Source of the DNA: Stenotrophomonas sp. Marseille-Q4652
GTDB taxonomy: Bacteria; Pseudomonadota; Gammaproteobacteria; Xanthomonadales; Xanthomonadaceae
DNA length: 64,000 bases
Direction: 5' to 3'
Assembly (NCBI RefSeq): GCF_916618915.1
Contig: NZ_CAKAKE010000001.1
Span: 2,277,001 to 2,341,000, forward strand
Shown: one piece after another, positions 12,675 to 30,070 of the stretch
Position numbering within the stretch: the stretch's first letter is position 1
Layout: every line of letters starts with the position of its first letter
Translations under genes and position numbers: made by a program
The notes under the pieces: generated by a model
What the model was told of the DNA's origin: nothing
Seen by the model: the letters and a program-made list of their open reading frames with translations, nothing else
The model's database searches: none

Positions 12675-13010
12675 TCAGTTGCCGCTGGCCTGCTTCTGGA
12701 CGAAGGCCTTGTACTCATCCGGCGTCAGCTGGCCATCGGAATCGGCATCGGCCTGGTCGAACACCTGGGCCAGGCCCGGGTTGACCTGCGCCTCGCTGCG
12801 GCTGATCGAGCCGTTGCCATCGGTATCGACGCTGGCCCAGGTCTGGCCGCCGCCGTTGGACTGCGCCTGTGTCTGTGCCTGTGCCGCGGCAGCGCCTGCA
12901 TCGGTGGTGGCGTCCTGGCCGGCGCTCTGGGCAAAGGCCGGAAAGCCCAGCGCCGCGCTGGCGCTCACGATCAGGGCGAGCAGGGAATTGCGGTTACGAA
13001 GATTCTTCAT
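12675..13010 (-). CDS. Exported EF-hand calcium-binding protein
   Basis: 111 residues from ATG 13010, with GAGG before the start. A signal peptide runs to FPAFAQ. An Ala/Gln-rich linker precedes two EF-hand loops: DTDGNGSISRSE and DADSDGQLTPDE, each with the 1-3-5-12 acidic or amide ligands of a canonical loop. It probably binds calcium in the periplasm. Small exported EF-hand proteins are common in Xanthomonadaceae; a partner is not evident. Confidence 0.85.
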   Translation of the reverse strand: MKNLRNRNSLLALIVSASAALGFPAFAQSAGQDATTDAGAAAAQAQTQAQSNGGGQTWASVDTDGNGSISRSEAQVNPGLAQVFDQADADSDGQLTPDEYKAFVQKQASGN

Positions 13011-13224
13011 GGAATACCTCTCTGACGTGGGTGGAAACGCACGGTGTCTCCGCACGGGGCCCACCTTGCCGCTGGAGGCCTGAATCGTTGTTGCCGGGGA
13101 ATCAGCGGATTACAGGCATTTAACCTGCTCGCAGGCGAGAGGGTCTAGCGCAGTGATTAGCGCGGCGTCAGTGCTTGGTAAGCCGCCCATTCAATGGGCC
13201 GTGAAAGCGTGACCCGTGACCGGA

Positions 13225-13605
13225 TCAGGCGGCCGGCTTGCCGCTTCCGTCTTCCGGCCGGTGGCTGAACAGCCAGTACGCGAGCGCTACACCGGCCAGC
13301 GCGCCGGAGACTTCCAGCACCACGCGGGTACCCAGTTCGTTGGGATCGTGGATGGTGGCCAGGAACAGCCGCGCGTACAGGGGCGACTCCAGCCGCATCA
13401 TCCCCATGTAGAACAGCTTCCAGATATCGATGCCCGCGCCGATCACCACGGCGATCACGCACGACCAGCCCAGAGCGTGGCCGATCGACCAGCGCAGCCA
13501 GCCGCACAGCTTGTGCCACAGCAAGTACACCGCGAACCCGACCAGCAGGGCGATCAATCCGGCTTCCAGCGAGCCCAGCAGTCCAAAGTGCAGCGGCAGG
13601 TTCAT
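13225..13605 (-). CDS. Inner-membrane protein, unknown function
   Basis: 126 residues from ATG 13605 (MNLPLHFGLL). Three hydrophobic segments are visible (about residues 9-30, 42-64 and 93-115), separated by a loop with LRWSIGH and a longer hydrophilic loop, then a basic tail. No family recognised. It lies 47 bp downstream of the CPXCG gene on the same strand. Confidence 0.55.
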   Translation of the reverse strand: MNLPLHFGLLGSLEAGLIALLVGFAVYLLWHKLCGWLRWSIGHALGWSCVIAVVIGAGIDIWKLFYMGMMRLESPLYARLFLATIHDPNELGTRVVLEVSGALAGVALAYWLFSHRPEDGSGKPAA

Positions 13606-13652
13606 CGTGCGTGTATCGAAACGAGGGAAGCGCACAGTCTAGCGGCTGCGCG

Positions 13653-13844
13653 CTACGCCTCGTCGCCCGAGGTCACGTGCAGCCGCACCTCGCCGTCGTC
13701 GTCGACCTGCACGAACACCTGCATCGGCCGGCAGCAGACCTGGCAGTCCTCGATGTACTGCTGGTCGTCGATGGAGGGATCGACCACCAGGTCGGTAGGC
13801 TCGCCGCAGTACGGGCAGTGCACGGTCAGCAGCTGGGTATCCAT
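13653..13844 (-). CDS. CPXCG-motif cysteine-rich protein
   Basis: 63 residues, with a strong AGAAGGAG site before the ATG. The motifs CPYCGEPTD and CQVCCRPM form two CxxC knuckles, a rubredoxin/zinc-ribbon-like metal site, followed by VFVQVDDDGEVRL. This is the full family length. A zinc-binding role is expected; the biological function of the family is unknown. Confidence 0.85.
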   Translation of the reverse strand: MDTQLLTVHCPYCGEPTDLVVDPSIDDQQYIEDCQVCCRPMQVFVQVDDDGEVRLHVTSGDEA

Positions 13845-13896
13845 GTGATCGCTCCTTCTGGACACCCACCCTGCACCGGCCGTGCTTCGCCCCGCG

Positions 13897-14625
13897 TCAA
13901 CGCACCGGGAAGCCGTAGGCGGTGGTCGGGTCCGGCTCCGGGCGGAAGGTGAAGTGCCACCACTCCTTGGGATAGTTGGCAAAGCCACGCCTGGCCATCG
14001 CATCGAGCAGCTGCTTGCGGTTTGCACGCTGGGCATCGGTCAGCCCGGGTGTGTGGGTATGCGCGATCGGATCGAAGAAGTCGAACGGCGTGCCCATGTC
14101 CAGCGGCTCGCAGCGACCGCTGCGGCAGTCCAGCAGGCCAAGGTCGACGGTGGCACCGCGGCTGTGGCCGGAGGTGGAGGCGATGTAGCCCTCGTCGATG
14201 AGCGTGTCCTTGGCGACGTTGGGATAGTGGCGCTGCCTCGCCTGCGGATCGTCCGGCTGGCCGACCCAGTCGACGAACGAATGCACGGCCGGCACCGGGC
14301 GGTAGCAGTCGTAGACCTGCAGTGAGTAGCCACCGGCGCGCAGGTCGTGCTGGACCCTGGCCAGCGCCTCGGCCACCGGCTGCAGCAGGTAGCAGGCGGC
14401 GGCCTCGTAGCCGGGAACGACGTTGCCGGTGAAGTTGTCGCGGCCGGCGTAGCGGATGTCCATGGCGATATCCGGCGCCAGCGTGCGGATCTCCACCATG
14501 CCGGCCTGCGCGGCATCGATGGCCGTGGACACCTTCACTTCATCGGCGGCGGCACTGGCGCAAGCCAGCAGTGCGGCAGCCAGCAGGCTGCAACGGAGGG
14601 TGGCACCAGGGCGGATGCGAAGCAT
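13897..14625 (-). CDS. ddpX: VanX/DdpX-type D-alanyl-D-alanine dipeptidase
   Basis: 242 residues, with GAGG before ATG 14625. A signal peptide (LLAAALLACASAAA) marks it as exported. M15D metallopeptidase residues are present: SGHSRGATVDL supplies the zinc His and Asp of the SxHxxGxAxD motif, and KEWWHF gives the catalytic Glu and third zinc His. The enzyme hydrolyses D-Ala-D-Ala, and here probably acts in the periplasm on peptidoglycan-derived dipeptide. It follows the serine hydrolase gene by 23 bp, so the two are probably co-transcribed. A role in glycopeptide resistance is unlikely in a Gram-negative. Confidence 0.85.
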   Translation of the reverse strand: MLRIRPGATLRCSLLAAALLACASAAADEVKVSTAIDAAQAGMVEIRTLAPDIAMDIRYAGRDNFTGNVVPGYEAAACYLLQPVAEALARVQHDLRAGGYSLQVYDCYRPVPAVHSFVDWVGQPDDPQARQRHYPNVAKDTLIDEGYIASTSGHSRGATVDLGLLDCRSGRCEPLDMGTPFDFFDPIAHTHTPGLTDAQRANRKQLLDAMARRGFANYPKEWWHFTFRPEPDPTTAYGFPVR

Positions 14626-14648
14626 GGCAACCTCGGTTGTCTGTCGTC

Positions 14649-16247
14649 TCAGGGGTGGGCACCGGACGCGGGACACGCGCCGGTGCGGACGAAATGCAGG
14701 TCCTGGTAGTCGTAGCTGAAATCGATGTCCGGGTCGATGGCGCGCATCTGCATGACCCTTTTCCCGTCCTCATGCGAGAACTGCAGCCATGCCTCGGCGT
14801 CCTCGCCCAGCCGCTCCCACTGCACCAGCCAGCGCGACTCCAGGCGCATGACCTGGCCATCGAGCCGCGGCGACTTGCGCGATACCCAGCGCACCATGCC
14901 TTCCTGCGGGCACAGCGTGACCTCACCGAACCACGGATCGCGGTACACGCCGGCCCACTGCGACAGCCCGGCCGGGGTTGCCGGCTGGCGTGCGGTGGTA
15001 TCCGTGGCAACCCGGCCGGCACTCTGCGAGGCCTCGCGGTCGGCCTGCAGCCGGTCGCCGTAATCGCCGACGCTGAAGCGCACCTGCGGCTGCGTCCAGC
15101 GCTGGAGCAGCACCTGCATCAGCGCGATGCGGGCGTCCTCGGCCTCGCCGTTGATCAGGATCACCACGCCGTTCCTCCGGTCCGGCAGCAGGGCCAGCGA
15201 GGAGTACATGCCCGACAGCGTGCCGGTGTGGGCAACCTTCCACTGGCCCTCCATGTCCGAGATCCGCCAGCCATAGCCATAACCCAGGAAGTGCGTGCCC
15301 TCCCATTGGCGCATGCGCTCGCTGATTGGCATTGGCATGTGCGCGGTCCACAGCGCGCGGCGCTGCGTGGTGTCCAGCCAGCCGGGCACGAGCTCCGGAT
15401 CGAGCAGCACCTGGCTCCAGCGCAGCATGTCCGTAAGCGAGCAGCGCACGCCGCCGGCGGCCATCGACGGGAAATCGGCCTCCCAGTCGCCATCGCGACC
15501 GCCGACCACGTTGCGGCCCTCGCGGCGCACGTGCGGCTGGGCGACGTTGCCGGTCCTGGCCGGCGACCAGTCACCGGCCCGGCAGCCCTCTAGGCCCAGC
15601 GGCGCGAACACTTCCTCGCGCAGCAACTGGTTGTACGGCTTGCCCCCGGCCGCGGCGGCGACCTCGCCGGCCACCACGTACAGCAGGTTGTCGTAGGCAT
15701 AGCCGGCGCGGAAGCTGGTCACCGGCTTGAGGTGGGCCAGGCCGGCGATGATGTCGGCGCGGCTGAAATCATTGGGTTCTGGCCACAGCATCAGGTCACC
15801 GGCGCCGAGGCCGAGGCCGGAGTTGTGCAGCAGCAGGTCGCGCACCTGGATCTGCTGCGTGACCCATGGGTCGTGCATGCGGAACTGCGGCAGGTGCCTG
15901 ATCACCGGGTCATCCCAGCGCAGCTTGCCGGCCTGCACCAGCCGCGCCAGCAGCGCACCGGTCATCGCCTTGGTGTTGGAGGCGATCTTGAACAGGCTGT
16001 CGGCATCGACCGCCGCGGGTTCGTCGACGGCCAGCCGGCCACGCGTGGCCACGTGGATCACCTCCCCGCCCTCGATTACGCCGACGGCAATGCCGGGCAG
16101 GTCATAGCGCGCGACCGTCTCGTCGACCAGACGGTCGATCTGGGCCTGCGCACTCGCATCGGCCTCGACGCAGGCCACCGCCAGCGGCGGTGCCAGCAGC
16201 AGCGCGCCGGCCAGCAGCCAGCGCGGCAGGATCTTGCGTTGTTGCAT
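14649..16247 (-). CDS. Exported serine hydrolase of the beta-lactamase / penicillin-binding fold
   Basis: 532 residues, with GGAGGGA before ATG 16247. The signal peptide ends near LAVAC. Catalytic motifs of the class C beta-lactamase/esterase superfamily: S90-N-T-K93, Y185-x-N187 and a late HTGTLSG. A C-terminal domain of about 150 residues follows the catalytic unit, as in D-amino-acid peptidases and related family S12 enzymes. Linkage to the D-Ala-D-Ala dipeptidase suggests action on D-Ala-containing peptides; a true beta-lactamase or an esterase are alternatives. Confidence 0.8.
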   Translation of the reverse strand: MQQRKILPRWLLAGALLLAPPLAVACVEADASAQAQIDRLVDETVARYDLPGIAVGVIEGGEVIHVATRGRLAVDEPAAVDADSLFKIASNTKAMTGALLARLVQAGKLRWDDPVIRHLPQFRMHDPWVTQQIQVRDLLLHNSGLGLGAGDLMLWPEPNDFSRADIIAGLAHLKPVTSFRAGYAYDNLLYVVAGEVAAAAGGKPYNQLLREEVFAPLGLEGCRAGDWSPARTGNVAQPHVRREGRNVVGGRDGDWEADFPSMAAGGVRCSLTDMLRWSQVLLDPELVPGWLDTTQRRALWTAHMPMPISERMRQWEGTHFLGYGYGWRISDMEGQWKVAHTGTLSGMYSSLALLPDRRNGVVILINGEAEDARIALMQVLLQRWTQPQVRFSVGDYGDRLQADREASQSAGRVATDTTARQPATPAGLSQWAGVYRDPWFGEVTLCPQEGMVRWVSRKSPRLDGQVMRLESRWLVQWERLGEDAEAWLQFSHEDGKRVMQMRAIDPDIDFSYDYQDLHFVRTGACPASGAHP

Positions 16248-16268
16248 CTTTCGTCCCTCCAAACGGCA

Positions 16269-16291
16269 AACGGCCCGCATTGCGGGCCGTT
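16269..16291 (-). terminator. Hairpin after the TonB receptor gene
   Basis: A 10-bp stem AACGGCCCGC/GCGGGCCGTT with a three-base loop, 19 bases past the receptor stop. It separates the receptor from the downstream hydrolase-dipeptidase pair, at least partly. Confidence 0.6.
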
Positions 16292-16309
16292 GCCTTCCCA
16301 CTCACTGGA

Positions 16310-19297
16310 TCAGAAGCTCCAGCTCACGTCCAGCTGCGCGTAGCGCGGGGCCTGCCAGCGGCGGGCCTCGGCGAAGTGCGGCATCTGCACGCCCGGGGCG
16401 CTCTCGTAACGCGAGTGCACGTTGACCGCGGCCTGGCTGTTGAGCACGTTGTAGATGTTGAAGCGTGCCTTCAGGTCGCCCACCGGCACCGGGATGGTCC
16501 AGGTGACGTTGAGGCCCAGGTCCTTGACCCACGGCATGCGGCCGAAGGCACCACGCGGGCTGTACACCAGCTCGCGATCGATGCTCGAGCAGTTGGCCAC
16601 GCACAGCCAGCCCGAACCGCCGCCGCTGTACTCGCCCGGACCACCGGCACTGCGGTTGTCGTTGGGCCAGCGCACGCCATAGGCGGTGATCGGGCCACCG
16701 GAGATCGCAGTAAAGGTGCCGCCGAAGGACAGCGCCTCGTTCAACTTGAAGCTGCCACGCAGCTTGATCTGGTGGCGGTGGTCGTTGAACAGGTAGCCGT
16801 AGCGCTCGTTGACCGCCGGGTGGTCGTAGTACTGCACCAGGTTGGTGTCGTTGTAGCCGGTATCCGAGTTCACCGGGCCTTCGATGTTGCCCTCGGACTT
16901 GGACCACAGGTAGCTGGCGTTGAACGCCCACCTGTCATCCCAGGCGCGGTCCAGCTGCAGCTCCACGCCCTTGTAGGTGCGCTTGGGCTTCTTGTAGCCC
17001 ATGACGATGCCGCTGCCGGTGGTGATGTAGCCGTCCTTGGAGCTGTCGAAGCTGACCCAGTCGTTGGTGGTCGGGCACCACAGGGTGGTCTTCTCGCCCG
17101 GGTTGATGATCGGCCAGTCGCCCGAGTACCACGGGCAGCCGTCGACGTGGCGGATGGCCGCATCTTCCACCGCGCGGGTCATGCGGCGGTAGGTCACGTT
17201 CGCACCGTAGGACCAGGATTCGCTGATCGCCTGCTGGAAGCCCAGGATGTATTCGTCCTGGAACACCTGCTTGAGGTTCCTGGCCACGGCGGTGCGCATG
17301 TCATCCGGCGCCGGGGCGTTGCCATCGGTGTTCACCGGGCCGATCTGGCCGCCCGGCACCGGCACGTAGTAGGCCGCACCGCTGGAGTCGGTGCGCTGCT
17401 CCCAGCCGGCCAGCGCGTAGTAGGTGTGCTCGTCGGTGGTGCCGCCGCCGAAGTAGTCGGTCAGCTTGTTGGTCAGCGGGATGTAGTAGCGGCCGGCGTT
17501 GCCGAACAGCTTGGTGGTGCCGTCGCCGTTCATGTCCCAGCTGAAGCCCAGGCGCGGGGAGATCATGTCGCCGAAGTCGGCCCTGGCGAACAGCGCGCCG
17601 CTGGCCAGGGTGTTGGTGAACTTGTCGGCGCGCACGCCCAGGCTGAGCAGCAGGTTCGGGGTGACGTTCCAGTTGTCCTCGATGTAGAAGGCCTGGGTGT
17701 CGGTGGAGACCGGCGCGCCGGTTACGTAACGGCGGGCGTCGATCAGGCCGGTGACACCGGCCGGCACCGCCGCGCCGTTGGCCAGCACCGCGCCCGGACG
17801 GGTGTTTAGCACGCTGTAGGCCAGGCCGTCGCCCGGGTTGAAGACCGTGCTGTCCGAATCCATCACCTCGCGGTCATAGCCGAAACGGACCAGGTGGTCG
17901 CCCAGCGTCCACTCGAAGTCCACGCGGCTGGCTTCGCGCTCGTCATAGCGGGTGCTGACGCGGGCGTTGTTGGGGTGGCAACCGATGCGGTCCGGCTTGG
18001 GACCGTTGGTATAGGCGGTGTGCGCGTAGGTGCTGCACTCGGCATCCATGTTGCTGCCGGAGGTGGCGCTGCGCTCATTGACGCCGTACATGAGCTTGGC
18101 GGTGAAGTTCTCGGTCAGGTGGCCGGTGTAGGTCGCCGACCAGTTGTCGCCACCCGAACCGGATGCGGCACTGCCGATGTCCGGCTCGCCCCACTGCCTG
18201 GTATCCCAGACGTAGTCGTTGTACTTGGTGGTGTACGAGGTCGCCTTGTCGGAGAACGCGAGCAGCTCGACCAGGTGGTCGTCGCTGATGCGCCAGTCCA
18301 GCTTGGCGCCCCAGAAGTCGTTGCCGCTGTCGGTCTTCCAGGCCTCGCTTTCGTCGATGTCGCGCGAGTCTGCATCGCGCTTCTCGTACATCGCGAAGAA
18401 GAACAGCTTGTCCTGCACGATCGGGCCGGACGCCCAGGCGTTGTACTTGTAGAACGGACTGGCGTCGCGGCTGGTCCGGTTGAGGTCGGTGATGCTGCCG
18501 TCCCGGTAGAAGTGGTCGTCGCGGCTGGATTCCCAGGCCGCCGGCTCGGCGGTGACCTGCACGCCGCCGTGGAACTCGTTGGTGCCCGAACGGGTGACGG
18601 CATTGATCACGCCGCCGGTGCTGCGGCCGAATTCGGCCGAGTAGCCGCCGGTCTTGACCTGCACTTCCTTGTAGAAGGCGAACGGCACCGAGGAGAAGCC
18701 CTGGCGACGGTACGGGTCGGTGACGTTGAGGCCGTTGATGTAGGCCACGTTCTCGGCCACCGAGGAGCCGCCGAAGGTCAGGCCGCCGAAGGTGGCGCCA
18801 CTGGCCACCACGCCCGGGGCGAGCAGCGCGACCGAACTCAGGCTCTGGTCCACCGGCAGCCGCGCCAGTTCCTCGCGGTTGATGTTGAACGAGCTTTCGG
18901 TGGAGTAGACGTCCACGCGGTTGACCACGCGCGAGCCGACCACGTGCACCGTGTCGAGGTTGCGCAGGCCACCTTCGGCATTGAGGTTGATGGTAGCGGT
19001 GCCGCCCAGCGGCACGGACACGGTCAGGTCCTGGCCGGCGCCCTGGCCCCCACGCGAAACCGACAGGGTGTAGTCGCCAACCGGCAGCTGGGACAGGCGG
19101 TAGGTGCCATCGGCGCCCACGGTGACCGTGCGGGTCAGGCCGGTGGCGGCATTGGTGATGGTGATCTGGTCACCTGCGCTTGCCCGGCCGGCCACCGCAC
19201 CGGTCGCACTCTGTGCCATCGCAAGAGGCGCCATGGACCCCAGGCACGCACCCAGGGCAACGCATAGCGCCGCCCGCTTCATGATCTTCGCGTTCAT
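16310..19297 (-). CDS. Oar-like TonB-dependent outer-membrane receptor
   Basis: 995 residues from ATG 19297 (MNAKIMKRAAL). Signal peptide to AMAQS. Then comes a carboxypeptidase-regulatory-like (CarboxypepD_reg) domain of about 90 residues (GTYRLSQLPVGDYTLSV), a plug domain (GGLTFGGSSVAENVAYINGLNVTDPY, then SAEFGRSTGGVINAVTRSGTNEFHG), and a beta-barrel rich in aromatic strands ending in W-S-F. This is the Oar/OmpA-related class abundant in Xanthomonadaceae. The ligand is unknown; the flanking genes suggest peptidoglycan or peptide fragments. The gene is divergent from the NlpC/P60 gene across a 538-bp gap. Confidence 0.85.
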   Translation of the reverse strand: MNAKIMKRAALCVALGACLGSMAPLAMAQSATGAVAGRASAGDQITITNAATGLTRTVTVGADGTYRLSQLPVGDYTLSVSRGGQGAGQDLTVSVPLGGTATINLNAEGGLRNLDTVHVVGSRVVNRVDVYSTESSFNINREELARLPVDQSLSSVALLAPGVVASGATFGGLTFGGSSVAENVAYINGLNVTDPYRRQGFSSVPFAFYKEVQVKTGGYSAEFGRSTGGVINAVTRSGTNEFHGGVQVTAEPAAWESSRDDHFYRDGSITDLNRTSRDASPFYKYNAWASGPIVQDKLFFFAMYEKRDADSRDIDESEAWKTDSGNDFWGAKLDWRISDDHLVELLAFSDKATSYTTKYNDYVWDTRQWGEPDIGSAASGSGGDNWSATYTGHLTENFTAKLMYGVNERSATSGSNMDAECSTYAHTAYTNGPKPDRIGCHPNNARVSTRYDEREASRVDFEWTLGDHLVRFGYDREVMDSDSTVFNPGDGLAYSVLNTRPGAVLANGAAVPAGVTGLIDARRYVTGAPVSTDTQAFYIEDNWNVTPNLLLSLGVRADKFTNTLASGALFARADFGDMISPRLGFSWDMNGDGTTKLFGNAGRYYIPLTNKLTDYFGGGTTDEHTYYALAGWEQRTDSSGAAYYVPVPGGQIGPVNTDGNAPAPDDMRTAVARNLKQVFQDEYILGFQQAISESWSYGANVTYRRMTRAVEDAAIRHVDGCPWYSGDWPIINPGEKTTLWCPTTNDWVSFDSSKDGYITTGSGIVMGYKKPKRTYKGVELQLDRAWDDRWAFNASYLWSKSEGNIEGPVNSDTGYNDTNLVQYYDHPAVNERYGYLFNDHRHQIKLRGSFKLNEALSFGGTFTAISGGPITAYGVRWPNDNRSAGGPGEYSGGGSGWLCVANCSSIDRELVYSPRGAFGRMPWVKDLGLNVTWTIPVPVGDLKARFNIYNVLNSQAAVNVHSRYESAPGVQMPHFAEARRWQAPRYAQLDVSWSF

Positions 19298-19835
19298 CCC
19301 CTGCTCTCTCCTGCAGACGTTGATAAGAAATTGGAACCACTGCCCGGAGGACCTGGCCTCCGGTGGCAGCACCGGACGCCGGAAACTCCTGTTTGCTGGA
19401 TCACCGCGGAGCTGCTCCCCAGCTGCTCCGCCCGCCGCACATCCCCTGAAGCCGTTACTGCTGCCCCGCTGCGCTGATCAAACAGGCGCGCGCACGGGCG
19501 TCCGGACCTGGGTCCGCTACCGCGTGTTGACCGATGAGCCGTCCTGGCGGGAAATCCTGGAAACGCGCAATTGTCCTGGGCCAGGCGCTCCCCGCCGGCC
19601 CGACCCCCGCACGCCCTGCAGCGGCGTCCATCGCCCTCGCGCCGCTGCATCGACTGCAGCACGGCAGGGCAACTACGCGACAACGCAGGCACGGCACGAT
19701 CCACGACGACACTCCCCAACGCGCGGGTGGTACGAAGGGTGTGTAGCACGGGCTCGATTGCCGGGTCAATAATTTATTCTTGCAATCGCGCGTACAAGGA
19801 ATAACTATTCCTGAAGCTACCGAGGAGCCTGTTCG
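19298..19835. other. 538-bp divergent intergenic region
   Basis: Separates the TonB receptor from the NlpC/P60 operon and must carry promoters in both directions. The last 80 bases on the NlpC side are clearly AT-richer than the surroundings and contain a palindrome and promoter-like hexamers. Open frames inside it overlap in shadow fashion and none has a ribosome-binding site. Nothing else recognised. Confidence 0.5.
19797..19812. promoter_or_regulatory. Palindrome AGGAATA-AC-TATTCCT, candidate operator upstream of the NlpC/P60 operon
   Basis: A perfect 7+2+7 inverted repeat 24 bases before the ATG. A TTGCAA at 19780-19785 would be a -35 element 17 bases from a weak -10 (AACTAT, 19803-19808) inside the palindrome, so a bound repressor could block the promoter. 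The regulator is not identified; the RpiR-type protein of the locus is an obvious candidate. Confidence 0.45.
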
Positions 19836-21278
19836 ATGAATCCGTTCCGCCTGTCTGCCGCCCTGCGGCCTTTGCCGTTGGGTGTCGCCGCCGCGGCCCT
19901 GCTGTGGTCATCGCTCGCGCTGGCTTCCTCGCCGGTGCCCCAGAGAACGGGCGACGGCCATGCCGGTGTCATCGGCCTGCAGGCTTCCTATCTGGGCGCC
20001 GACCACTGGGTCGGGCAGCTTCCCGATCCGGACCGCGTGATCCTGGACCGCGCCGGCATCGCCGCGCAGAACGCGCGCATGCGTGCCGAGGACAAGTCGA
20101 TCCACGACCTCGCCGCGCTGCCGGCGACGCTGTCGCGCGAGGAGGTGGTTGCGAGGATCCAGGAGCTTTCGTCCCTGCCCAGCCGCACCCTGTATGACGT
20201 CAACGGGCGCGAGGTCGGCGCCTCGCAGCTGCGCTCGCTGGAGCGCAACCTGGCGCTGGGCAAGGTCGCGGCCACCACCGATGTCCGCTACGGGCTGGTG
20301 GTGCATCGCGCCGCGCTGCGCACCTTCCCGACCGCGCTGCGGGTGTTCAACAGCCGTGGCGATACCGACATCGACCGCTTCCAGGAGTCGGCGCTGTTCC
20401 CCGGCGATACGGTAGCAGTGCTGCACGAGAGCGCCGACGGCCAGTGGCTGTTCGTCACCAGCGAGCGCTACTCGGCGTGGATCGAGAAGCAGCATGTCGG
20501 CCTCGGCAGCCGCGCGCAGGTACTCGGCTATGGCAGCTCCGGCCCGTACCGGGTGGTGACCGGCGCCACCGCCTTCACCGCCTACACCCCGGAAGAGCCG
20601 CGCGTGTCGCGCCTGCAGCTGGACATGGGCGTACGCCTGCCGGTGCTGGCCGGCTGGCCGGCCAACGAACCGGTCAATGGCCAGCAGGCCCACGCCGGCC
20701 ACGTGCTGCAGCTGCCGGTGCGCAACGCCGACGGCTCGCTGGCCCTGGTGCCGGCGCTGCTGCCGCGCTCGCAGGACACCGCCGACGAGTACCTGCCGCT
20801 GACCCCGCGCAACCTGCTGGTGCAGTCGTTCAAGTTCCTCGGCGAGCGCTACGGCTGGGGCCACTCGTACGACGCCCGCGACTGCAGCGGCTTCGTCTCG
20901 GAGATCTACCGCAGCTTCGGCGTGTTGCTGCCGCGCAATACCAGCGCGCAGGCGGTGAGCCCGGCGCTGGACCGCATCGCCTTCACTGCCGACGACGGCA
21001 AGGACCAGCGTGACCAGGCCGTGGCCGACCTGCAGGTCGGCGATCTGGTCTACATCCCGGGCCACGTGATGATGGCCATCGGCAAGGCCGACGGCCGTAC
21101 CTGGCTGATCCACGACACCTCCGGCGGCAGCTGGTTCGGCGCGGATGGCAAGCGCGTGCAGGCCCACCTCAATGGCGTCTCGGTGACGCCGCTGGAGCCG
21201 ATGATGGCCAGCGACACCGCCAGCTACGTCGACCGCATCACCAACATCCAACGCATCCGGCCACGGGCCCACGAATGA
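19836..21278 (+). CDS. Exported SH3-NlpC/P60 peptidoglycan endopeptidase
   Basis: 480 residues with signal peptide (cut near ALASS). SH3b-type domains span about residues 145-290 (WLFVTSERYSAWIEKQHV is typical), followed by an NlpC/P60 catalytic domain at about 330-470: C350 in YDARDCSGFV, H410 in PGHVMMAIG and a polar third residue near H426. Family members cut the gamma-D-Glu-mDAP bond of stem peptides, often requiring a free L-Ala, and release L-Ala-D-Glu. The stop overlaps the epimerase ATG (ATGA), a direct link to the enzyme that would use this product. Confidence 0.88.
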   Translation: MNPFRLSAALRPLPLGVAAAALLWSSLALASSPVPQRTGDGHAGVIGLQASYLGADHWVGQLPDPDRVILDRAGIAAQNARMRAEDKSIHDLAALPATLSREEVVARIQELSSLPSRTLYDVNGREVGASQLRSLERNLALGKVAATTDVRYGLVVHRAALRTFPTALRVFNSRGDTDIDRFQESALFPGDTVAVLHESADGQWLFVTSERYSAWIEKQHVGLGSRAQVLGYGSSGPYRVVTGATAFTAYTPEEPRVSRLQLDMGVRLPVLAGWPANEPVNGQQAHAGHVLQLPVRNADGSLALVPALLPRSQDTADEYLPLTPRNLLVQSFKFLGERYGWGHSYDARDCSGFVSEIYRSFGVLLPRNTSAQAVSPALDRIAFTADDGKDQRDQAVADLQVGDLVYIPGHVMMAIGKADGRTWLIHDTSGGSWFGADGKRVQAHLNGVSVTPLEPMMASDTASYVDRITNIQRIRPRAHE

Positions 21279-22372
21279 AGATCACCGCCATCGAGCTCGG
21301 CATGCTGCGCGTGCCGCTGAAGACCCCGTTCAAGACCGCCCTGCGCACCGTCGACACGGTCGAGGACATCGTGGTGCTGGTGCGCACCGACACCGGCCAC
21401 ACCGGTTACGGCGAGGCACCGGCCACGGCGGTGATCACCGGTGACACCCACGGCTCGATCATCGAGGCGATCCGCCACTTCATCGGCCCGCGCCTGATCG
21501 GCCAGGACGTGTCCAACCTCAACCGCATCTGCGGGCTGATCCAGGGCTCGATGGAACGCAACACCAGCGCCAAGGCCGCGGTGGAGATTGCCGTCTACGA
21601 CCTGTGGGCGCAGCTGCACGGCGCGCCGCTGTACCAGATGCTGGGTGGCGGCGACCCGGTGATCACCACCGACATCACGATCAGCGTCGACTACATCGAC
21701 AAGATGGTGGCCGACTCGCTGTCGGCGATCGAGCGCGGCTTCGAGTCGCTGAAGATCAAGGTCGGCAAGGACATCGGCCTGGACATCAAGCGGGTCAAGG
21801 CGATCCATGCCGCGGTCGAGGGCCGTGCCCTGCTGCGCCTGGACGCCAACCAGGGCTGGACCGCCAAGCAGGCGGTGCACGCGATGAAGGCGCTGGAGGA
21901 CGCGGGCGTGGTGCTGGAGTTGCTGGAACAGCCGGTCAAGGCGGCCGACATCGCCGGCCTGAAGTACGTCACCGACCGGGTCAACACGCCGGTGATGGCC
22001 GACGAGAGCGTGTTCAGCCCCACCCAGGTGTTCGACCTGATCCAGCAGCGCGCCGCCGACATCATCAACATCAAGCTGATGAAGACCGGTGGCCTGTCCA
22101 ACGCGATCCGCATCGCCGACATCGCCGCGATCTACGGCATGCCGTGCATGATCGGCTGCATGATCGAATCGAGCATCAGCGTGGCGGCCGCCGTGCACCT
22201 GGCAGTGGCCCGCGCCGACGTGATCACCAAGGTCGACCTCGATGGTCCGTCGCTGGGCCGCTTCAACCCGGTCGAGGGCGGGGTCACCTTCAACGAGTCG
22301 GAGATCAGCATCTCCGATGCGCCCGGCCTGGGCATCACCGAGGTGCGCGGGCTGGAAATGCTCCCCGCATGA
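21275..22372 (+). CDS. L-Ala-D/L-Glu epimerase (enolase superfamily)
   Basis: 365 residues. Residue positions align almost one for one with characterised L-Ala-D/L-Glu epimerases: K160-x-K162 base pair, metal ligands D190, E218 and D243 (RLDANQGW, LLEQPV, MADES), and K267 on the opposite face. The enzyme converts L-Ala-D-Glu from peptidoglycan into L-Ala-L-Glu, which ordinary dipeptidases can cut. No signal peptide, so it is cytoplasmic. Translationally coupled to the NlpC/P60 gene. A different dipeptide specificity cannot be excluded. Confidence 0.88.
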   Translation: MKITAIELGMLRVPLKTPFKTALRTVDTVEDIVVLVRTDTGHTGYGEAPATAVITGDTHGSIIEAIRHFIGPRLIGQDVSNLNRICGLIQGSMERNTSAKAAVEIAVYDLWAQLHGAPLYQMLGGGDPVITTDITISVDYIDKMVADSLSAIERGFESLKIKVGKDIGLDIKRVKAIHAAVEGRALLRLDANQGWTAKQAVHAMKALEDAGVVLELLEQPVKAADIAGLKYVTDRVNTPVMADESVFSPTQVFDLIQQRAADIINIKLMKTGGLSNAIRIADIAAIYGMPCMIGCMIESSISVAAAVHLAVARADVITKVDLDGPSLGRFNPVEGGVTFNESEISISDAPGLGITEVRGLEMLPA

Positions 22373-22431
22373 GCACCTGGCAGCGCAGGGTCATCCGCAC
22401 CGCGCTGCCGCATACCCCGGCGGTTTCCCGC

Positions 22432-22457
22432 ACGGCACCTGTCCGCGCAGGTGCCGT
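22432..22457 (+). terminator. Hairpin between epimerase and regulator genes
   Basis: A 10-bp stem ACGGCACCTG/CAGGTGCCGT with a six-base loop, 60 bases after the epimerase stop. The T-run is poor, so read-through into the regulator is possible. Confidence 0.5.
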
Positions 22458-22544
22458 TCGCATCTGCGTGCGCGTGCCTGCCGGCCCGCTGCGCCGGCGC
22501 CGGTCGCTGCCGTAAAGTCCTGCCACCCAACCGCCACCTCGCCC

Positions 22545-23393
22545 ATGCCACCGCTGCTGAAGATCCGTTCCGAACGCGAGCAGATGTCGGCGATCGAGCG
22601 TCGCATCGCCGACTTCATCCTCGACAACGCCCACCTGCTGCGCGACTACTCCTCGCAGCAGCTAGCCAATGCGCTGGACATCAGCCAGTCCTCGGTCGTG
22701 AAGTTCAGCCAGAAGCTCGGCTTCAAGGGCTATCCCGACCTGAAGTACTCCATTGGCGAGGCGGTGGCCCGCGCCGGCAACGGCCAGGCCGAGGCCGCAC
22801 CGGCGCCGCCGGCCGACAGCGACTACGCCCGCCACGCCACCGACCTGCACCGTGCCAAGCTCGAGGCCGAGGAGGAAACGCGGCTGGTGAATCCGCAGGA
22901 GACGGTGGAGGCCATCGTCGGCCTGCTCGATGCCGCACCGAAGGTGTTCGTCTACGGCCTGGGCGATGACGGCCTGTACGCACGCGAGTTCGCGATGCGG
23001 CTGTCGCTGCTGGGCATCCTCACCGTGCACCACGCCGATCCGGTGCTGATGATGGCCAACCTTTCCGCTGCGCGGCCGGGCGACGTGATGCTGGTGTTCT
23101 CCGAGTTCGGCCGGCTGCCCCAGCTGTGGCAGCTCTCGCGCCAGTTCCAGGAAGGCGGCGGCAGGGTGGTGTCGATCACCCGCCACACCTCCAATCCGCT
23201 GCGCGCGCATGCCGATGCGGCGCTGGCGATCTGCGCCCATGCGCAGGCACCGCACATGGCGCAACTGTTGTACCGTTCCTCGCTGCAGTACCTGCTCGAT
23301 TTCGTGTTCGTGCTGCTGTGCCATGCCAACCCGGACCGGTACCGCCAGCTCGGCGTCAACCAGGAACGGATCCAGCACCTGATCGACAACTGA
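22545..23393 (+). CDS. MurR/RpiR-family transcriptional regulator
   Basis: 282 residues from ATG 22545. The N-terminal HTH_6 domain (about 1-77) reads MSAIERRIADFILDN, YSSQQLANALDISQSSVVKFSQKLGFKGYPDLK. A SIS domain follows at about 120-260 (KVFVYGLGDDGLYAREFAMRL). SIS domains in this family bind phosphosugars; MurR itself senses MurNAc-6-phosphate. It lies between the epimerase and the YkuD-fold gene, and is probably the local regulator. The ligand is not known and could be an amino-sugar phosphate from peptidoglycan. Confidence 0.88.
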   Translation: MPPLLKIRSEREQMSAIERRIADFILDNAHLLRDYSSQQLANALDISQSSVVKFSQKLGFKGYPDLKYSIGEAVARAGNGQAEAAPAPPADSDYARHATDLHRAKLEAEEETRLVNPQETVEAIVGLLDAAPKVFVYGLGDDGLYAREFAMRLSLLGILTVHHADPVLMMANLSAARPGDVMLVFSEFGRLPQLWQLSRQFQEGGGRVVSITRHTSNPLRAHADAALAICAHAQAPHMAQLLYRSSLQYLLDFVFVLLCHANPDRYRQLGVNQERIQHLIDN

Positions 23394-23413
23394 CCGCCGG
23401 AGCCTGCCGACCC

Positions 23414-24199
23414 ATGCCCAGTCCCACCCGCGCCGCCACCGGCGGCCTGCTGCCGCGCCTGGCCCTGCTGCTGTCACTGGCCGTGCCGGCTGCCGCCACC
23501 CTGGCAGCAAGCGGCCCGCTCGATGGCGCCAGGCAAGTGGTCGTGGTGACCAGCGAGGGCTGGGATGCGGGCAGCGGGCGCCTGCAGGCGTTCGAACGCG
23601 GCGACGATGGCTGGCAGCCGCATGGCGACTCCTTCGAGGTGGCCCTGGGCCGCAGTGGCAGCGCCTGGGGCGTGGGCCTGCATCCGGCGCCCGCCGGCGA
23701 CGGTCCGCGCAAGCGCGAAGGCGATGGCCGCAGCCCGGCGGGCGTGTTCGCCATCGGCGAGGCCTTCGGCTACGCAGGCATGATCGACAGCGCGCTGCGC
23801 TACCGGCCGATGCTGCGTGACAGCTACTGCATCGACGTGCCCGAGTCGCCGCTGTACAACCGCATCGTCGAGGCCGACGAGGTCGGCGCCGAGGCGGTGG
23901 AAGGCTCGACCGAGCCGATGCGGCTGGACCTGCACAACAACGGCGACGTCCGCTACCGCGAAGGTTTCGTCATCGCCCACAACCCGGGCAACCAGCCCGG
24001 CCTGGGCAGCTGCATCTTCGCCCATCTGTGGCGCGCGCCCGGCGAGGCCACCGCCGGCTGCACCGCCATGGAACCGGCACGGATGAGCGCGCTGCTGGCC
24101 TGGCTGCAGCCGCAGGCCCGTTTCGTGCTGCTGCCCGCGGCTGAATACCGCCGGCTGCAGGCGCAGTGGCAGCTGCCGGCACTGGAGGCCGCACCGTGA
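23414..24199 (+). CDS. Exported YkuD-fold (L,D-transpeptidase-like) protein
   Basis: 261 residues from ATG 23414, with signal peptide (LLLSLAVPAAATLAAS). The catalytic signature is IFAHLWRAPGEATAGCTAM: H204 and C216 match the His and nucleophilic Cys of the YkuD motif, in the shorter form found in the ErfK-like subgroup. GDGRSPAGVFAIGEAFGY is the usual substrate-side motif. It could cut or exchange the mDAP-D-Ala bond of tetrapeptides in the periplasm. It starts 20 bp after the regulator and overlaps the permease start by GTGA. Confidence 0.75.
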   Translation: MPSPTRAATGGLLPRLALLLSLAVPAAATLAASGPLDGARQVVVVTSEGWDAGSGRLQAFERGDDGWQPHGDSFEVALGRSGSAWGVGLHPAPAGDGPRKREGDGRSPAGVFAIGEAFGYAGMIDSALRYRPMLRDSYCIDVPESPLYNRIVEADEVGAEAVEGSTEPMRLDLHNNGDVRYREGFVIAHNPGNQPGLGSCIFAHLWRAPGEATAGCTAMEPARMSALLAWLQPQARFVLLPAAEYRRLQAQWQLPALEAAP

Positions 24200-25521
24200 G
24201 CGAAGCCGACAACAGCCAGCCGCAGCTGGTCCGCGCGGTCAGTCGCTGGCAGATCGTCGGCCTGTCGATCAATGACGTCATCGGCAGCGGCATCTACCTG
24301 CTGCCCGCGGCCACGGTCGCCCTGCTCGGCGGCTTCAGCCTGTGGGGCGTGGTGCTGGCCGGCGTCGTCGTCGCGCTGCTGGTGGCCTGCTACGCGCAGG
24401 CGGCCAGCTATTACGACGCGCCCGGCGGCAGCTACCTGTACGCACGCGAGGCCTTTGGCCCGTTCATCGGATTCCAGGTCGGCTGGATGATCTGGCTGAC
24501 CCGCATCGCCTCGGCGGCGGCGCTGGCCAATGCCCTGGCCGACGCGCTGGCGCGGTTCTGGCCGGTGCTCGGCGAAGGCGGCGGGCGTGCGGCGGTGATC
24601 GTCGGCTCGCTCGGGCTGCTGACCTTCATCAACGTGATAGGCGTGCGTTCGGCCGCGCGCACCGGCGTGGCGCTGGTGATCGGCAAGCTGCTGCCGCTGG
24701 CGGTCTTCATCTTCGTCGGCCTGTTCTACGTGGACTGGTCGCTGGCCTTCCGCGGCGAGGCCATTGCCCTGCATGACCCGGCCAGGCTCGGCGAAGCGGC
24801 CTTGCTGCTGCTCTATGCCTATGCCGGTTTCGAGAACATTCCGGCCGCCGCCGGCGAATACCGCAACCCGCGCCGCGACCTGCCGTTCGCGCTGATGACG
24901 ATGATCGTCACCGTGACCCTGGTCTATGCCGGCGTGCAGCTGGTCGCCCAAGGCACGCTGGCCGGGCTGGCCGGTTCGGCCACACCGCTGGCCGATTCGG
25001 CCGCCACCTTCGGCGGCGTCGGCATGGCGATGCTGCTGACCTTCGGCGCGGTGGTGTCGATCCTGGGCACCAACTCCAACACGATGATGATGGGCCCGCG
25101 CTTCCTGTACGCCCTGGCCCATGACGGCTACGGCCCGTCGATCCTGGCCCGGGTGCATGCCCGCTTCCGCACCCCGGCCGCGGCCATCATCACCCAGGGC
25201 GTGATCGCGCTTGGCCTGGCGCTGGCACCGATGCTGATCGAGGAACCCACCCACAATCCGTTCGTGCTGCTGGCCCTGCTGTCGATGGTGACCCGGCTGC
25301 TGTCCTACATCGGCACCGCCGCGGCGGTGCTGGTGCTGGAGCGCCGCTACGGCCACCGCGCCGAGGCCATGCAGCTGCCCGGCGGCCGGCTGATCCCGGT
25401 GCTGGCGCTGCTGCTGTGCCTGGCGCTGTTTGCCAGCGCCAGCTGGCAGAACATCCTTGCCGCGGCGGTGGCCTTCGCGATCGGCGCGGTGATCTACCTG
25501 TTCCCGCGCCGGGCTCACTGA
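24196..25521 (+). CDS. APC-superfamily amino acid/peptide permease
   Basis: 441 residues starting GTG 24196, overlapping the preceding stop. About twelve membrane segments are visible. The APC signature near the N terminus is VGLSINDVIGSGIYLLPA, and AGFENIPAAAGEYRNPRRDLP matches the conserved loop after TM6. It is a secondary transporter for an amino acid or small peptide. Its place at the end of the operon suggests import of amino acids or L-Ala-D-Glu released from peptidoglycan; the substrate is inferred from context only. Confidence 0.85.
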   Translation: MSEADNSQPQLVRAVSRWQIVGLSINDVIGSGIYLLPAATVALLGGFSLWGVVLAGVVVALLVACYAQAASYYDAPGGSYLYAREAFGPFIGFQVGWMIWLTRIASAAALANALADALARFWPVLGEGGGRAAVIVGSLGLLTFINVIGVRSAARTGVALVIGKLLPLAVFIFVGLFYVDWSLAFRGEAIALHDPARLGEAALLLLYAYAGFENIPAAAGEYRNPRRDLPFALMTMIVTVTLVYAGVQLVAQGTLAGLAGSATPLADSAATFGGVGMAMLLTFGAVVSILGTNSNTMMMGPRFLYALAHDGYGPSILARVHARFRTPAAAIITQGVIALGLALAPMLIEEPTHNPFVLLALLSMVTRLLSYIGTAAAVLVLERRYGHRAEAMQLPGGRLIPVLALLLCLALFASASWQNILAAAVAFAIGAVIYLFPRRAH

Positions 25522-25596
25522 GCGGCCACGTCCCGGTCACGGCTGGCTAACTGGAGTGCGGCGATCGTGCGGCGTCTCCCCCACAGGAACGCGCCG

Positions 25597-26094
25597 ATGA
25601 AGACCCGCCGTGTCTACAGCACCCACGACGTCGAGGCCGCCCAGCACGCCCTGCAGGCAGCGCGCCAGCATGGGGTCGAGAACGATGACCTGTCGCTGGT
25701 GGCCCGTGGCGACATCGAGCTGCAGCAGATTCCCGACGACCGCAAGGAAGCGCGCACCGACATGCTGCCGGCCGTTGCGCGTGGCGCGCTGGGCGGCGGT
25801 GCCGCCGGCCTGCTGGCCGGGCTGGTGGCCATCGCGGTGCCGCCGCTGGGCATCACCCTGGCCGGTGCCGGCGCACTGACCGCCGCCGGCGCCCTGGTCG
25901 GCAGCTGGTCGTCGGCGCTGATGGGCTCGACCGTGCCCGACCCGGTGCGCCGCACCTTCGAGGAGCAGATCGAGAGCGGCCGCATCCTGCTGGTGGTCGA
26001 CGCCGAACCGGAGGTGCTGGACCGCGCCGAAACCGCGATCACCGCCGCCGGTGCTACGCCGCTGCCCTACGACGCCCCGTCATTGCCGGCCTGA
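25597..26094 (+). CDS. Glycine-zipper stress-type protein (DUF1269-like)
   Basis: 165 residues from ATG 25597 (MKTRRVYSTHDVEAAQHALQ). The protein has an N-terminal alpha/beta unit with DLSLVARGDIELQQIPDD. A glycine/alanine-rich hydrophobic double hairpin follows (about residues 62-108: GALGGGAAGLLAGLVAIAVPP). A C-terminal unit (GRILLVVDAEPEVLDRAETAI) is like the flexible ends of general-stress YflT/DUF1269 proteins. The membrane-associated Gly zipper and lone position suggest a stress protein; the function is not known. Confidence 0.55.
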   Translation: MKTRRVYSTHDVEAAQHALQAARQHGVENDDLSLVARGDIELQQIPDDRKEARTDMLPAVARGALGGGAAGLLAGLVAIAVPPLGITLAGAGALTAAGALVGSWSSALMGSTVPDPVRRTFEEQIESGRILLVVDAEPEVLDRAETAITAAGATPLPYDAPSLPA

Positions 26095-26185
26095 GCGCAG
26101 TCCTTGATCCGGCGCTCACGCCGTGGCGCACCGGCCTTAATGCCGGTGCGGTTAGGGTCATGCGTCCCCGAGAAAGGAAACGCCA

Positions 26186-26521
26186 ATGAGTACCGACTAC
26201 CAGATCCCCGGCCGCGTACCCAATGACGGCGTGCAGCGCACCGCGGTTTCCACGTTCTGGCGCGAGCGCTTCACCGCAGAGCCGTACTACACCGAAGGCG
26301 ACCGTTTCGAGGATTTCGAATCGGCCTACTACGCCGGCCACGAGGCCCGCGTGCGCGAATACACCCGCGCCTATGAGGAAGTGGAAGCCGAACTGCAGCA
26401 GCGCTGGGAACACGACCATCGCGACAAGCCCGGGCTGGGCTGGGACCGTGCGCGCCACGCGATCCGCCGCGCCTGGGACGAGGCCGGCAAGCTGGTGTCC
26501 GGCACTTCGCGGGACCGCTGA
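26186..26521 (+). CDS. Small conserved hypothetical protein
   Basis: 111 residues with an AAAGGAAA ribosome-binding site. Rich in aromatic and charged residues (FEDFESAYYAGHEARVREYTRAYEEVEAELQ is split here by Tyr-rich turns), mainly helical, with no signal or membrane segment. It resembles small soluble stress-associated proteins of Xanthomonadaceae, but no named family is recognised. Confidence 0.65.
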   Translation: MSTDYQIPGRVPNDGVQRTAVSTFWRERFTAEPYYTEGDRFEDFESAYYAGHEARVREYTRAYEEVEAELQQRWEHDHRDKPGLGWDRARHAIRRAWDEAGKLVSGTSRDR

Positions 26522-26641
26522 TCGGGCGCAGTCGCTCGTGAAACGTGCAGTCGCGCGGCCAGCGGGGGGGCGTGGTGACGCCGGTTTCGCTATCGATGGT
26601 GTAAAACACCCGGCAATACCCAGCTGCAACAGGAGACCCGC

Positions 26642-27790
26642 ATGACGCCCCGACTGCTGCTCACCCTCGCCTGCGCGCTGACGCCCGGCCTGGTCACCAC
26701 GGCCTGCGCGCAGGACAACGAAGCCCAGCCGGCGGCGGTGGAACGCGCGCAATGGCCGTTCACCGCCACCGAGTTCGGCAGGTTCGACGAGCCGTGGGCA
26801 ATGACCTTCCTGCCTGATGGCGGCCTGCTGGTCACCGAGAAGGGCGGCAAGCTGCGCCATTTCGACGTCACCTCGCGCAAGAGCACGGAGATCACCGGCG
26901 TGCCGGCAGTGGCCTACGGTGGCCAGGGCGGCCTGGGCGACGTGGTGCTGCATCCGCAGTTCGCCAGCAACCAGCTGGTCTACATCAGCTATGCCGAGGC
27001 CGGCGACGGCGATACCCGCGGCGCGGCCGTGGCGCGGGCGAAGCTGCAGCTGGACAAGGCCGGTGGCGGCAAGCTGGCCGACCTGCAGGTGATCTGGCGG
27101 CAGACGCCCAAGGTCACCGGTAGCGGCCACTACGGCCACCGCATTGCCTTCGACCAGGACGGCAAGCTGTGGATCAGCTCCAGCGAGCGCCAGAAGTTCG
27201 ATCCGGCGCAGGACATGAAGGCCAACCTCGGCAAGCTGATCCGGCTCAATGACGATGGTTCCGTGCCGGCCGACAACCCCTTCGTCGACCAGGGCAGTCC
27301 CGCCGACCAGGTGTGGTCGCTGGGCCACCGCAATATCCTCGGCATCGCCTTCGATGCGCAGCAGCGGTTGTGGGCGCACGAGATGGGCCCCAAGGGCGGC
27401 GACGAGCTCAACCTGATCCAGCGCGGCGGCAACTACGGCTATCCGCTGGTTTCAAACGGCAACCACTACGACGGCCGCGAGATCCCCAACCACGACACCC
27501 GTCCGGACTTCATCGCACCGAAGGTGACCTGGTGGGAAGTGATTTCCCCGGCCGGCCTGATCATCTACAGCGGCAGCCAGTTCCCGCAGTGGCAGGGCAG
27601 CGGCTTCATCGGTGGCCTGTCGTCCAAGTCGCTGGTTCGCGTCGCCTTCGAGGGCGAGAACGCCAGCGAGGCCGAGCGCTTTGACATGGGCGAGCGCATC
27701 CGCGAAGTCGAACAGGGTCCGGACGGCGCCATCTGGCTGCTGGAAGACGGCAAGGGCGGGCGCCTGCTCAAGCTGACCCCGCGCAACTGA
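26642..27790 (+). CDS. PQQ-dependent aldose sugar dehydrogenase (YliI-like)
   Basis: 382 residues with an AGGAG site and a signal peptide (cut near TTACAQ). The six-bladed beta-propeller of the soluble glucose/aldose dehydrogenase family is recognisable: [56 protein letters not shown] with the catalytic His, and [12 protein letters not shown]. It oxidises aldoses in the periplasm with PQQ and calcium. PQQ biosynthesis genes are not in the window. A strong terminator follows. Confidence 0.88.
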
Positions 27791-27814
27791 CGCCCATCAA
27801 AAGGCTCGGAGAAC

Positions 27815-27844
27815 AGCCCGTCACCGTGCGGTGGCGGGCTTTTT
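27815..27844 (+). terminator. Rho-independent terminator
   Basis: A 12-bp stem with one G-T wobble (27815-27826 with 27829-27840), a two-base minimal loop and a TTTTT run, 24 bases past the sugar dehydrogenase stop. It sits between convergent genes. Confidence 0.85.
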
Positions 27845-27856
27845 CCGTTTTGCGAA

Positions 27857-30031: not shown

Positions 30032-30070
30032 GGGAACTTCCTCGGAACGTGGGTCTTGCCGGCAACGCAC

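Follow-up and report, generated by a model that had tools for sequence, protein, structure and literature searches.

A block of eight genes at positions 13897–25521 of a 64,000-nucleotide stretch of the Stenotrophomonas sp. Marseille-Q4652 genome is probably a locus for scavenging peptidoglycan stem peptides: two-armed, conserved, locally regulated and controlled by an RpiR-family regulator. The whole stretch, hereafter the window, covers positions 2277001–2341000 of the 3.35-Mb genome (G000:C1; G+C content 0.68). This best-supported reading draws on what the compared sequences contain: the genes with their active-site residues, a linkage that is conserved, an operator associated with the regulator, and the recruitment of further stem-peptide genes in relatives. 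An earlier note made from the DNA alone had placed NlpC/P60, YkuD-fold, VanX-like and S12 enzymes, an epimerase, a TonB receptor, an APC permease and an RpiR regulator here, and open reading frame (ORF) translations with Pfam and NCBIfam scans recovered all eight. The features are listed below, with likely start codons taken from the ORF translations.

13897–14676, minus strand: putative M15 D-Ala-D-Ala dipeptidase-like enzyme (VanX/DdpX type), predicted to be exported; likely start 14625 (PF01427, 140 bits)
14649–16301, minus strand: putative S12 serine hydrolase (AmpH-like) with a DUF3471-like C-terminus, predicted to be exported; likely start 16247 (PF00144, 205 bits)
16310–19372, minus strand: Oar-type TonB-dependent outer-membrane receptor; likely start 19297 (PF13620, PF07715, PF25183)
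19765–19779, plus strand: candidate operator, first half, GTCAATAATTTATTC; tied to RpiR across the family
19798–19811, plus strand: candidate operator, second half, the palindrome GGAATAACTATTCC, set 33 bp downstream of the first half; single perfect match in its own genome
19836–21278, plus strand: exported SH3b + NlpC/P60 endopeptidase (DvLysin/PnpA type), predicted to cut gamma-D-Glu-meso-diaminopimelate (mDAP) (SH3_6 PF12913, NLPC_P60 PF00877)
21275–22372, plus strand: L-Ala-D/L-Glu dipeptide epimerase, cytoplasmic (MR_MLE_N and MR_MLE_C; closest solved chain 1JPM)
22545–23393, plus strand: RpiR-family regulator (HTH_6 77 bits, SIS 52 bits; operator co-occurrence)
23414–24199, plus strand: YkuD-fold enzyme, exported, predicted L,D-carboxypeptidase/transpeptidase on mDAP-D-Ala (Pfam, 22.1 bits)
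24196–25521, plus strand: APC-family inner-membrane permease, GTG start at 24196 (PF13520, 140 bits)

The left arm runs leftward with short gaps from the receptor through the S12 to the M15 gene, and the right arm runs rightward from nlpC through the epimerase gene and, after a 172-bp gap, rpiR, ykuD and the APC gene. About 540 bp separate the two arms, and the operator sits in this interval. The ATGA coupling proposed for nlpC and the epimerase gene is real (overlap at 21275–21278), and ykuD overlaps the APC gene by four bases, as in 39 of the 44 relatives in which both genes were measured. Export was judged by a simple hydropathy test, which is not a signal-peptide predictor and was applied to the window proteins and to orthologues of NlpC, YkuD, S12, M15, the epimerase and RpiR. 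The M15, S12, receptor, NlpC and YkuD proteins of the window each have an N-terminal hydrophobic stretch of the export kind, which recurred in 73 of 76 NlpC, 55 of 66 YkuD, 50 of 61 S12 and 45 of 56 M15 orthologues. The stretch was found in none of the 80 epimerase or 62 RpiR orthologues, and neither window protein has it or any membrane segments. The APC permease has about 10 membrane segments.

In the pathway that we propose, the TonB receptor would admit muropeptides or stem peptides to the periplasm, where the exported enzymes would cut them: NlpC/P60 at the D-Glu-mDAP bond, YkuD at mDAP-D-Ala, and S12 and M15 on the D-Ala ends. An amidase, encoded elsewhere in this genome or within the block of some relatives, would release the peptide from N-acetylmuramic acid (MurNAc). 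The permease would then import amino acids or L-Ala-D-Glu, and the cytoplasmic epimerase would convert L-Ala-D-Glu to L-Ala-L-Glu, for ordinary dipeptidases. RpiR would sit at the nlpC promoter until a pathway product appears, repression being assumed.

Conserved linkage is the first evidence for such a locus. An epimerase search confirmed 457 relatives, and the best 80 of these 457 were retained as loci; the 57 that span at least 20.5 kb are called full-flank loci, and some of the other contigs are short. By tblastn across the 80 loci, NlpC was found in 80, RpiR in 75, the receptor in 72, YkuD in 70, S12 in 69, M15 in 61 and APC in 46. The earlier note had staked its proposal on synteny in relatives. 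All 57 full-flank loci have the epimerase, NlpC, RpiR, a TonB receptor of some kind and a transporter (APC, SDF or DUF819); YkuD was present in 55, S12 in 53, a Transglut_core protein in 52 and M15 in 47. The genes could still be neighbours through shared descent, with no joint function. The block is adjoined at 26642–31336 by genes for a glucose/sorbosone dehydrogenase (GSDH), a GH3 glycosidase and an MscS channel, kept mainly in closer relatives, and these flanks too are present throughout the 25 closest full-flank loci. With divergence, however, the flanks are lost while the block persists. GSDH, GH3 and MscS occur in 25, 25 and 25 of the 25 loci with at least 90% epimerase identity, in 12, 16 and 7 of the next 18, and in 2, 2 and 0 of the 14 below 86%; in these 14 most diverged loci NlpC was found in 14, RpiR in 14, YkuD in 13, S12 in 10 and M15 in 7. 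Because the block genes outlast the flanks, a chance neighbourhood is disfavoured, and as the operator tracks RpiR and accompanies relocated parts (see below), we regard shared descent alone as highly improbable.

Co-occurrence was counted in 99 genomes sampled evenly across the family. The epimerase was found in 58 of them, NlpC in 64 and RpiR in 48, with neither epimerase nor NlpC in 35. NlpC accompanies the epimerase in 58 of 58 genomes, within 2.5 kb and on the same strand in 57 (the exception is G046), and six genomes have NlpC and no epimerase. Without exception rpiR co-occurs with the epimerase gene (48 genomes), and the two are adjacent in 47 of the 48; in G071 they lie on different contigs. 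Across the wider phylum, 249 Pseudomonadota genomes were searched, and 8 have NlpC relatives at E ≤ 1e-10, 5 of these 8 belonging to the same order. In L113, a locus from another family, a YkuD-like gene lies about 3 kb from NlpC. No epimerase was recognised there or in L114, the second other-family locus, where the gene caller failed and no block gene was recognised, even NlpC going uncalled. L061, from a record titled Bacillus subtilis SK7B5, has a locus of the Stenotrophomonas type whose epimerase is 91% identical, and is probably mislabelled or contaminated.

The second line of evidence is a composite 47-bp candidate operator (19765–19811) directly upstream of nlpC, in which GTCAATAATTTATTC is followed, at a constant spacing of 33 bp, by GGAATAACTATTCC. 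The latter, at 19798, is the only GGAA-N6-TTCC in the window. This palindrome recurs upstream of nlpC in relatives, and GTCAATAATTTATTC is the more conserved of the two halves: of 78 upstream regions, 72 fit the operator within three mismatches, 68 of these 72 with the exact 15-mer. A weight matrix trained on relatives' nlpC upstream regions gave one site in the window (64 bits) and none above 8 bits in five single-base shuffles. Of the 80 loci, 78 have one or more sites above 25 bits, the other two (L048 and L066) being contigs that start at nlpC.

The first half, GTCAATAATTTATTC, was also sought with at most one mismatch in the 99 family genomes. It lies upstream of nlpC, on its strand and at a distance of 57–1349 bp, in 47 of the 48 RpiR genomes; the one genome without a site, G007, has a completeness of 72%, and the nlpC match there starts 225 bp from a contig end. 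None of the 51 genomes without RpiR has the half-site upstream of nlpC, and 16 of these 51 have NlpC. The fairest contrast is 47/48 with RpiR versus 0/16 with NlpC and no RpiR, which bears out the shared regulation that had been put forward as a further check. G034 and G068, both without RpiR, have one-mismatch sites, yet no NlpC match. The operator resembles the IolR site. A regulator with many targets in its own genome was unsupported, since the palindrome gave one perfect match there, no one-mismatch match, and 24 two-mismatch matches versus 21 in a reversed control.

Where DUF819 leads the operon, the operator precedes it (L043, L054, L115, L126, L127, L131 and L135). This membrane family of unknown function, exemplified by L043:7094–8239 and first after the operator in several relatives, is a candidate L-Ala-D-Glu importer. 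In the split or duplicated loci L120 and L121 (G057) and L124 and L128 (G003), every part has its own operator, and the second site in G057 serves the DUF819 gene of the split locus.

Operators also stand before receptor genes. Two sites were found in 6 of the 80 loci, and in each of these the extra site has an amidase gene on one side and the 5' end of a second type of TonB receptor on the other. This second-type receptor was matched in 12 loci and in 8 of them has an operator 214–351 bp before its 5' end, its own second site in six and the site shared with nlpC in L056 and L077. Relocated receptors in L124 and L134 each carry an operator. G003 has a receptor 72% identical to that of the window on another contig with an operator directly upstream, and G063 has another receptor with an operator. 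In G005 a receptor is preceded by the first half only, with one mismatch, and the matrix gave no site there. Because operators stand before them, receptors are, as judged from these sites, members of the regulon in several relatives. The receptor in the window's slot falls into three sequence classes, with 71–74% identity to the window protein in 9 loci, 56–60% in 27 and 46–49% in 15 (51 loci, L004–L083). These classes do not track epimerase identity, as if receptors had been exchanged in place.

The third line of evidence comes from the enzymes. The epimerase had been said to have a full set of active-site residues, and R24, K160, K162, D190, E218, D243, K267, D321 and D323, a set that takes in the catalytic lysines, the metal ligands and the DxD motif, are indeed invariant in 80 of 80 aligned orthologues. 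Its closest solved chain is B. subtilis YkfB (1JPM, 357 bits), and it scores below the NCBIfam equivalog cut-offs (250 versus 500 bits for NF041118 and 114 versus 343 for NF011708). In NlpC, C350, H410 and H426 are invariant in 76 of 76 aligned orthologues, and the nearest solved relatives are DvLysin (3M1U) and PnpA (6SQX). Pfam gave no match to an N-terminal c-clip domain in NlpC, and the alignments start at residue 117 in 3M1U and at residue 102 in 6SQX. Asn368, which is Asn in all 76 orthologues, aligns with the Asp of 'PRDS' in 3H41, taken as Asp256 of BcYkfC, the residue that marks the YkfC subfamily of free-peptide enzymes (Xu et al. 2010, section 3.10). Membership of NlpC in that subfamily was rejected on this ground and, because Asn replaces Asp256, we expect NlpC to act on MurNAc-linked stems too. 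An amidase step is expected to be needed still to yield L-Ala-D-Glu, and no MurNAc-L-Ala amidase was found among the block genes scanned with Pfam, so the dismantling capacity that the earlier note had called complete was overstated.

M15 keeps its zinc and catalytic residues H171, D178, E238 and H241 in 56 of 56 aligned orthologues; 1R44 is its single solved match, and it lies under the NCBIfam equivalog cut-offs (186 versus 320 for VanX and 115.5 versus 176 for PRK10178). The SxxK, YxN and HxG motifs of S12 are kept in 61 of 61 aligned orthologues, and its best NCBIfam match is AmpH at 86 bits versus a cut-off of 266. YkuD has H204 and C216 invariant in 66 of 66 aligned orthologues. The Pfam score of the window protein is 22.1 versus a gathering threshold of 23.4, with the L043 orthologue passing at 25.1. 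A search of YkuD against solved sequences at E ≤ 1 returned nothing but WD-40 repeat chains, and Foldseek with the YkuD model returned nothing at E ≤ 0.001, the best match being an L,D-transpeptidase at 0.026. A second structure look (VIA), on a mediocre model, was clearer than Foldseek. The YkuD-fold identity is weak by sequence and appears clearer by structure comparison.

Relatives carry additional modules. A Transglut_core (TGc) protein is encoded between receptor and nlpC in 52 of the 57 full-flank relatives (for example L010:6941–8473) and is missing from the window (19298–19764); its model is poor (mean predicted local distance difference test score, pLDDT, of 62), and at E ≤ 0.001 the model matched only three chains of 3ISR, a putative cysteine protease. 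An Amidase_2 protein occurs in 13 of the 57 loci (the one scored gave 106 bits for AmpD versus a cut-off of 143), a diaminopimelate (DAP) decarboxylase in 2 (the one scored gave 456 versus 298), a GltP-like SDF symporter in 17, and DUF819 in 1, with more among other genomes. Because the SDF protein scores 130 bits for GltP versus a cut-off of 638, the transporter substrate is a guess. LysA-type genes at the locus scored 459–485 bits (cut-off 298) in five genomes checked; in these five a further copy lies outside the locus, in an open frame of 882–1214 codons, and G000, G029 and G010 have only such a copy. In L034 (Stenotrophomonas mori) one stretch holds S12, amidase, LysA, receptor and TGc on one side and NlpC, epimerase, RpiR, YkuD and APC on the other. 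A recruited amidase, an extra DAP decarboxylase and a glutamate-type symporter are fitting companions for stem-peptide catabolism. A general locus for D-amino-acid-rich peptides or protein fragments, with wall peptides as one source only, would suit the Oar-type receptors, which form a family, the broad S12 and M15 families, and the varied specificities of dipeptide epimerases as a group. We consider this improbable, since the epimerase is nearest to YkfB and has its residues, and NlpC, YkuD, the amidase and the DAP decarboxylase point to mDAP-type wall peptides.

The genome also encodes recycling functions. AmpG scores 411 bits (cut-off 350) and Mpl 608 bits in the own genome, and Mpl is above its cut-off in 99 of 99 family genomes, for which reason a role of the locus as a stand-in for missing Mpl was rejected. 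Because AmpG and Mpl are both present, the locus would be an added route and not a replacement. Thus, of the dedicated TonB-to-epimerase route that the earlier note had envisaged, a conserved, co-regulated locus stands, beside AmpG/Mpl and not in their place. No MurI match was found in the own genome, with the control search positive in 10 of 14 genomes. Because no MurI-type glutamate racemase was found, dipeptide epimerisation is the one route found for returning wall D-Glu to metabolism, MurL and D-amino-acid aminotransferase being unsearched. We frame the locus as an added catabolic route in which the epimerase handles D-Glu at the dipeptide level.

With AmpG and Mpl present, wall fragments circulate anyway, and the locus might instead clear or remodel the cell's own periplasmic fragments, in turnover or in tuning beta-lactamase-inducing muropeptide signals, with the receptor an unrelated neighbour. 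The cutting enzymes look exported, and EcgA, a known relative, remodels its own wall (PMC7860986). We nevertheless judge this unlikely: all full-flank loci keep a TonB receptor, operators stand before the second-type receptor in 8 of 12 cases and before two relocated receptors, and the recruitment of LysA and a symporter looks nutritional. Stem-peptide scavenging remains our preferred reading.

As for its regulator, the designation 'MurR/RpiR' holds for the HTH_6 and SIS domains and fails for MurR, for which the NCBIfam score is 82 bits versus a cut-off of 408. The SIS loop reads S-E-F-G-x, and Asp143, Glu188, Gly190, Arg214 and His215 are invariant in 62 orthologues. Sugar-phosphate SIS domains usually carry a serine/threonine loop, and because the S-E-F-G-x loop differs from this, it appears to leave room for a ligand other than sugar phosphate. 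It is conceivable, if on balance doubtful, that the locus is a murein-peptide utilisation locus, equivalent to those known for polysaccharides: TonB-gated and RpiR-switched, with receptor, importer, amidase and DAP decarboxylase as exchangeable modules, an RpiR that senses a peptide or amino-acid product (for example L-Ala-D-Glu) and not a sugar phosphate, and the main part in D-Glu recovery from walls in MurI-less (MurD2/MurL) bacteria.

Several points weigh against the scavenging reading. The co-occurrence counts are not corrected for ancestry, and ten of the 58 epimerase genomes have no RpiR. No operator was found near the second-type receptor in 4 of its 12 loci (L057, a 27% match, L072, L079 and L080). 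In the window the operator lies about 470 bp from the receptor start, and we infer control of the left arm. A consensus scan of 13000–27000 gave no sigma-70 promoter at the operator, and no promoter is claimed. The own genome has five receptor genes of this Oar-type Pfam family, which together with the three slot classes weakens the claim of one fixed ligand. Lastly, APC permeases are mainly carriers of single amino acids, and import of L-Ala-D-Glu may therefore depend on a gene elsewhere.

The proposed locus would bring separate annotations in Lysobacteraceae (VanX-like, NlpC/P60, RpiR, TonB receptor) together as a single pathway that can be tested and has a named operator, and supplies a candidate for the entry of cell-wall peptides through the outer membrane. 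It would also link D-Glu recovery to the wall chemistry of these MurI-less bacteria, and suggests roles for the DUF819 and Transglut_core families found in the block of relatives.

A literature search at the level of titles and abstract openings met no earlier description of such a locus, which does not establish absence from print. In AmpG-Mpl recycling, anhydromuropeptides are imported and the tripeptide is re-ligated; the window locus would likewise return stem peptides to the cell, but is predicted to cut them in the periplasm and to epimerise D-Glu. Caulobacter N-acetylglucosamine (GlcNAc) clusters (PMC13046382) bring together a TonB receptor, an inner-membrane importer, catabolic enzymes and a regulator for a wall component, as the window locus does, but they take a sugar and not a peptide and use a GntR-type regulator and a phosphotransferase-system permease. 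Four-domain enzymes of the DvLysin, PnpA and EcgA type cut gamma-D-Glu-mDAP, and window NlpC resembles them in its SH3b and C-terminal NlpC/P60 domains and Cys-His site; PnpA is secreted and the role of DvLysin is unknown, and the three are not described as parts of uptake loci in the available portion of PMC7860986. Closest are the B. subtilis ykfABCD and B. cereus ykfBC operons, in which an NlpC/P60 gene likewise adjoins the L-Ala-D/L-Glu epimerase gene. According to PMC2954226 (section 3.1), this ykfB-ykfC pairing also occurs in Listeria, Acidobacterium, Solibacter, Bacteroides and Gramella, and B. cereus YkfC has a signal peptide, in keeping with the exported NlpC of the window. Unlike the ykf operons, the window block has no ATP-binding cassette (ABC) importer (Pfam scans of the block and flank ORFs gave no component of one), and its NlpC has Asn for the YkfC-subfamily Asp256. 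It goes beyond them in its TonB receptor, RpiR operator, S12, M15 and YkuD enzymes and secondary transporter. The locus thus shares an NlpC-epimerase core with the ykf operons and departs from them in its receptor, its regulator, its type of NlpC and its importer.

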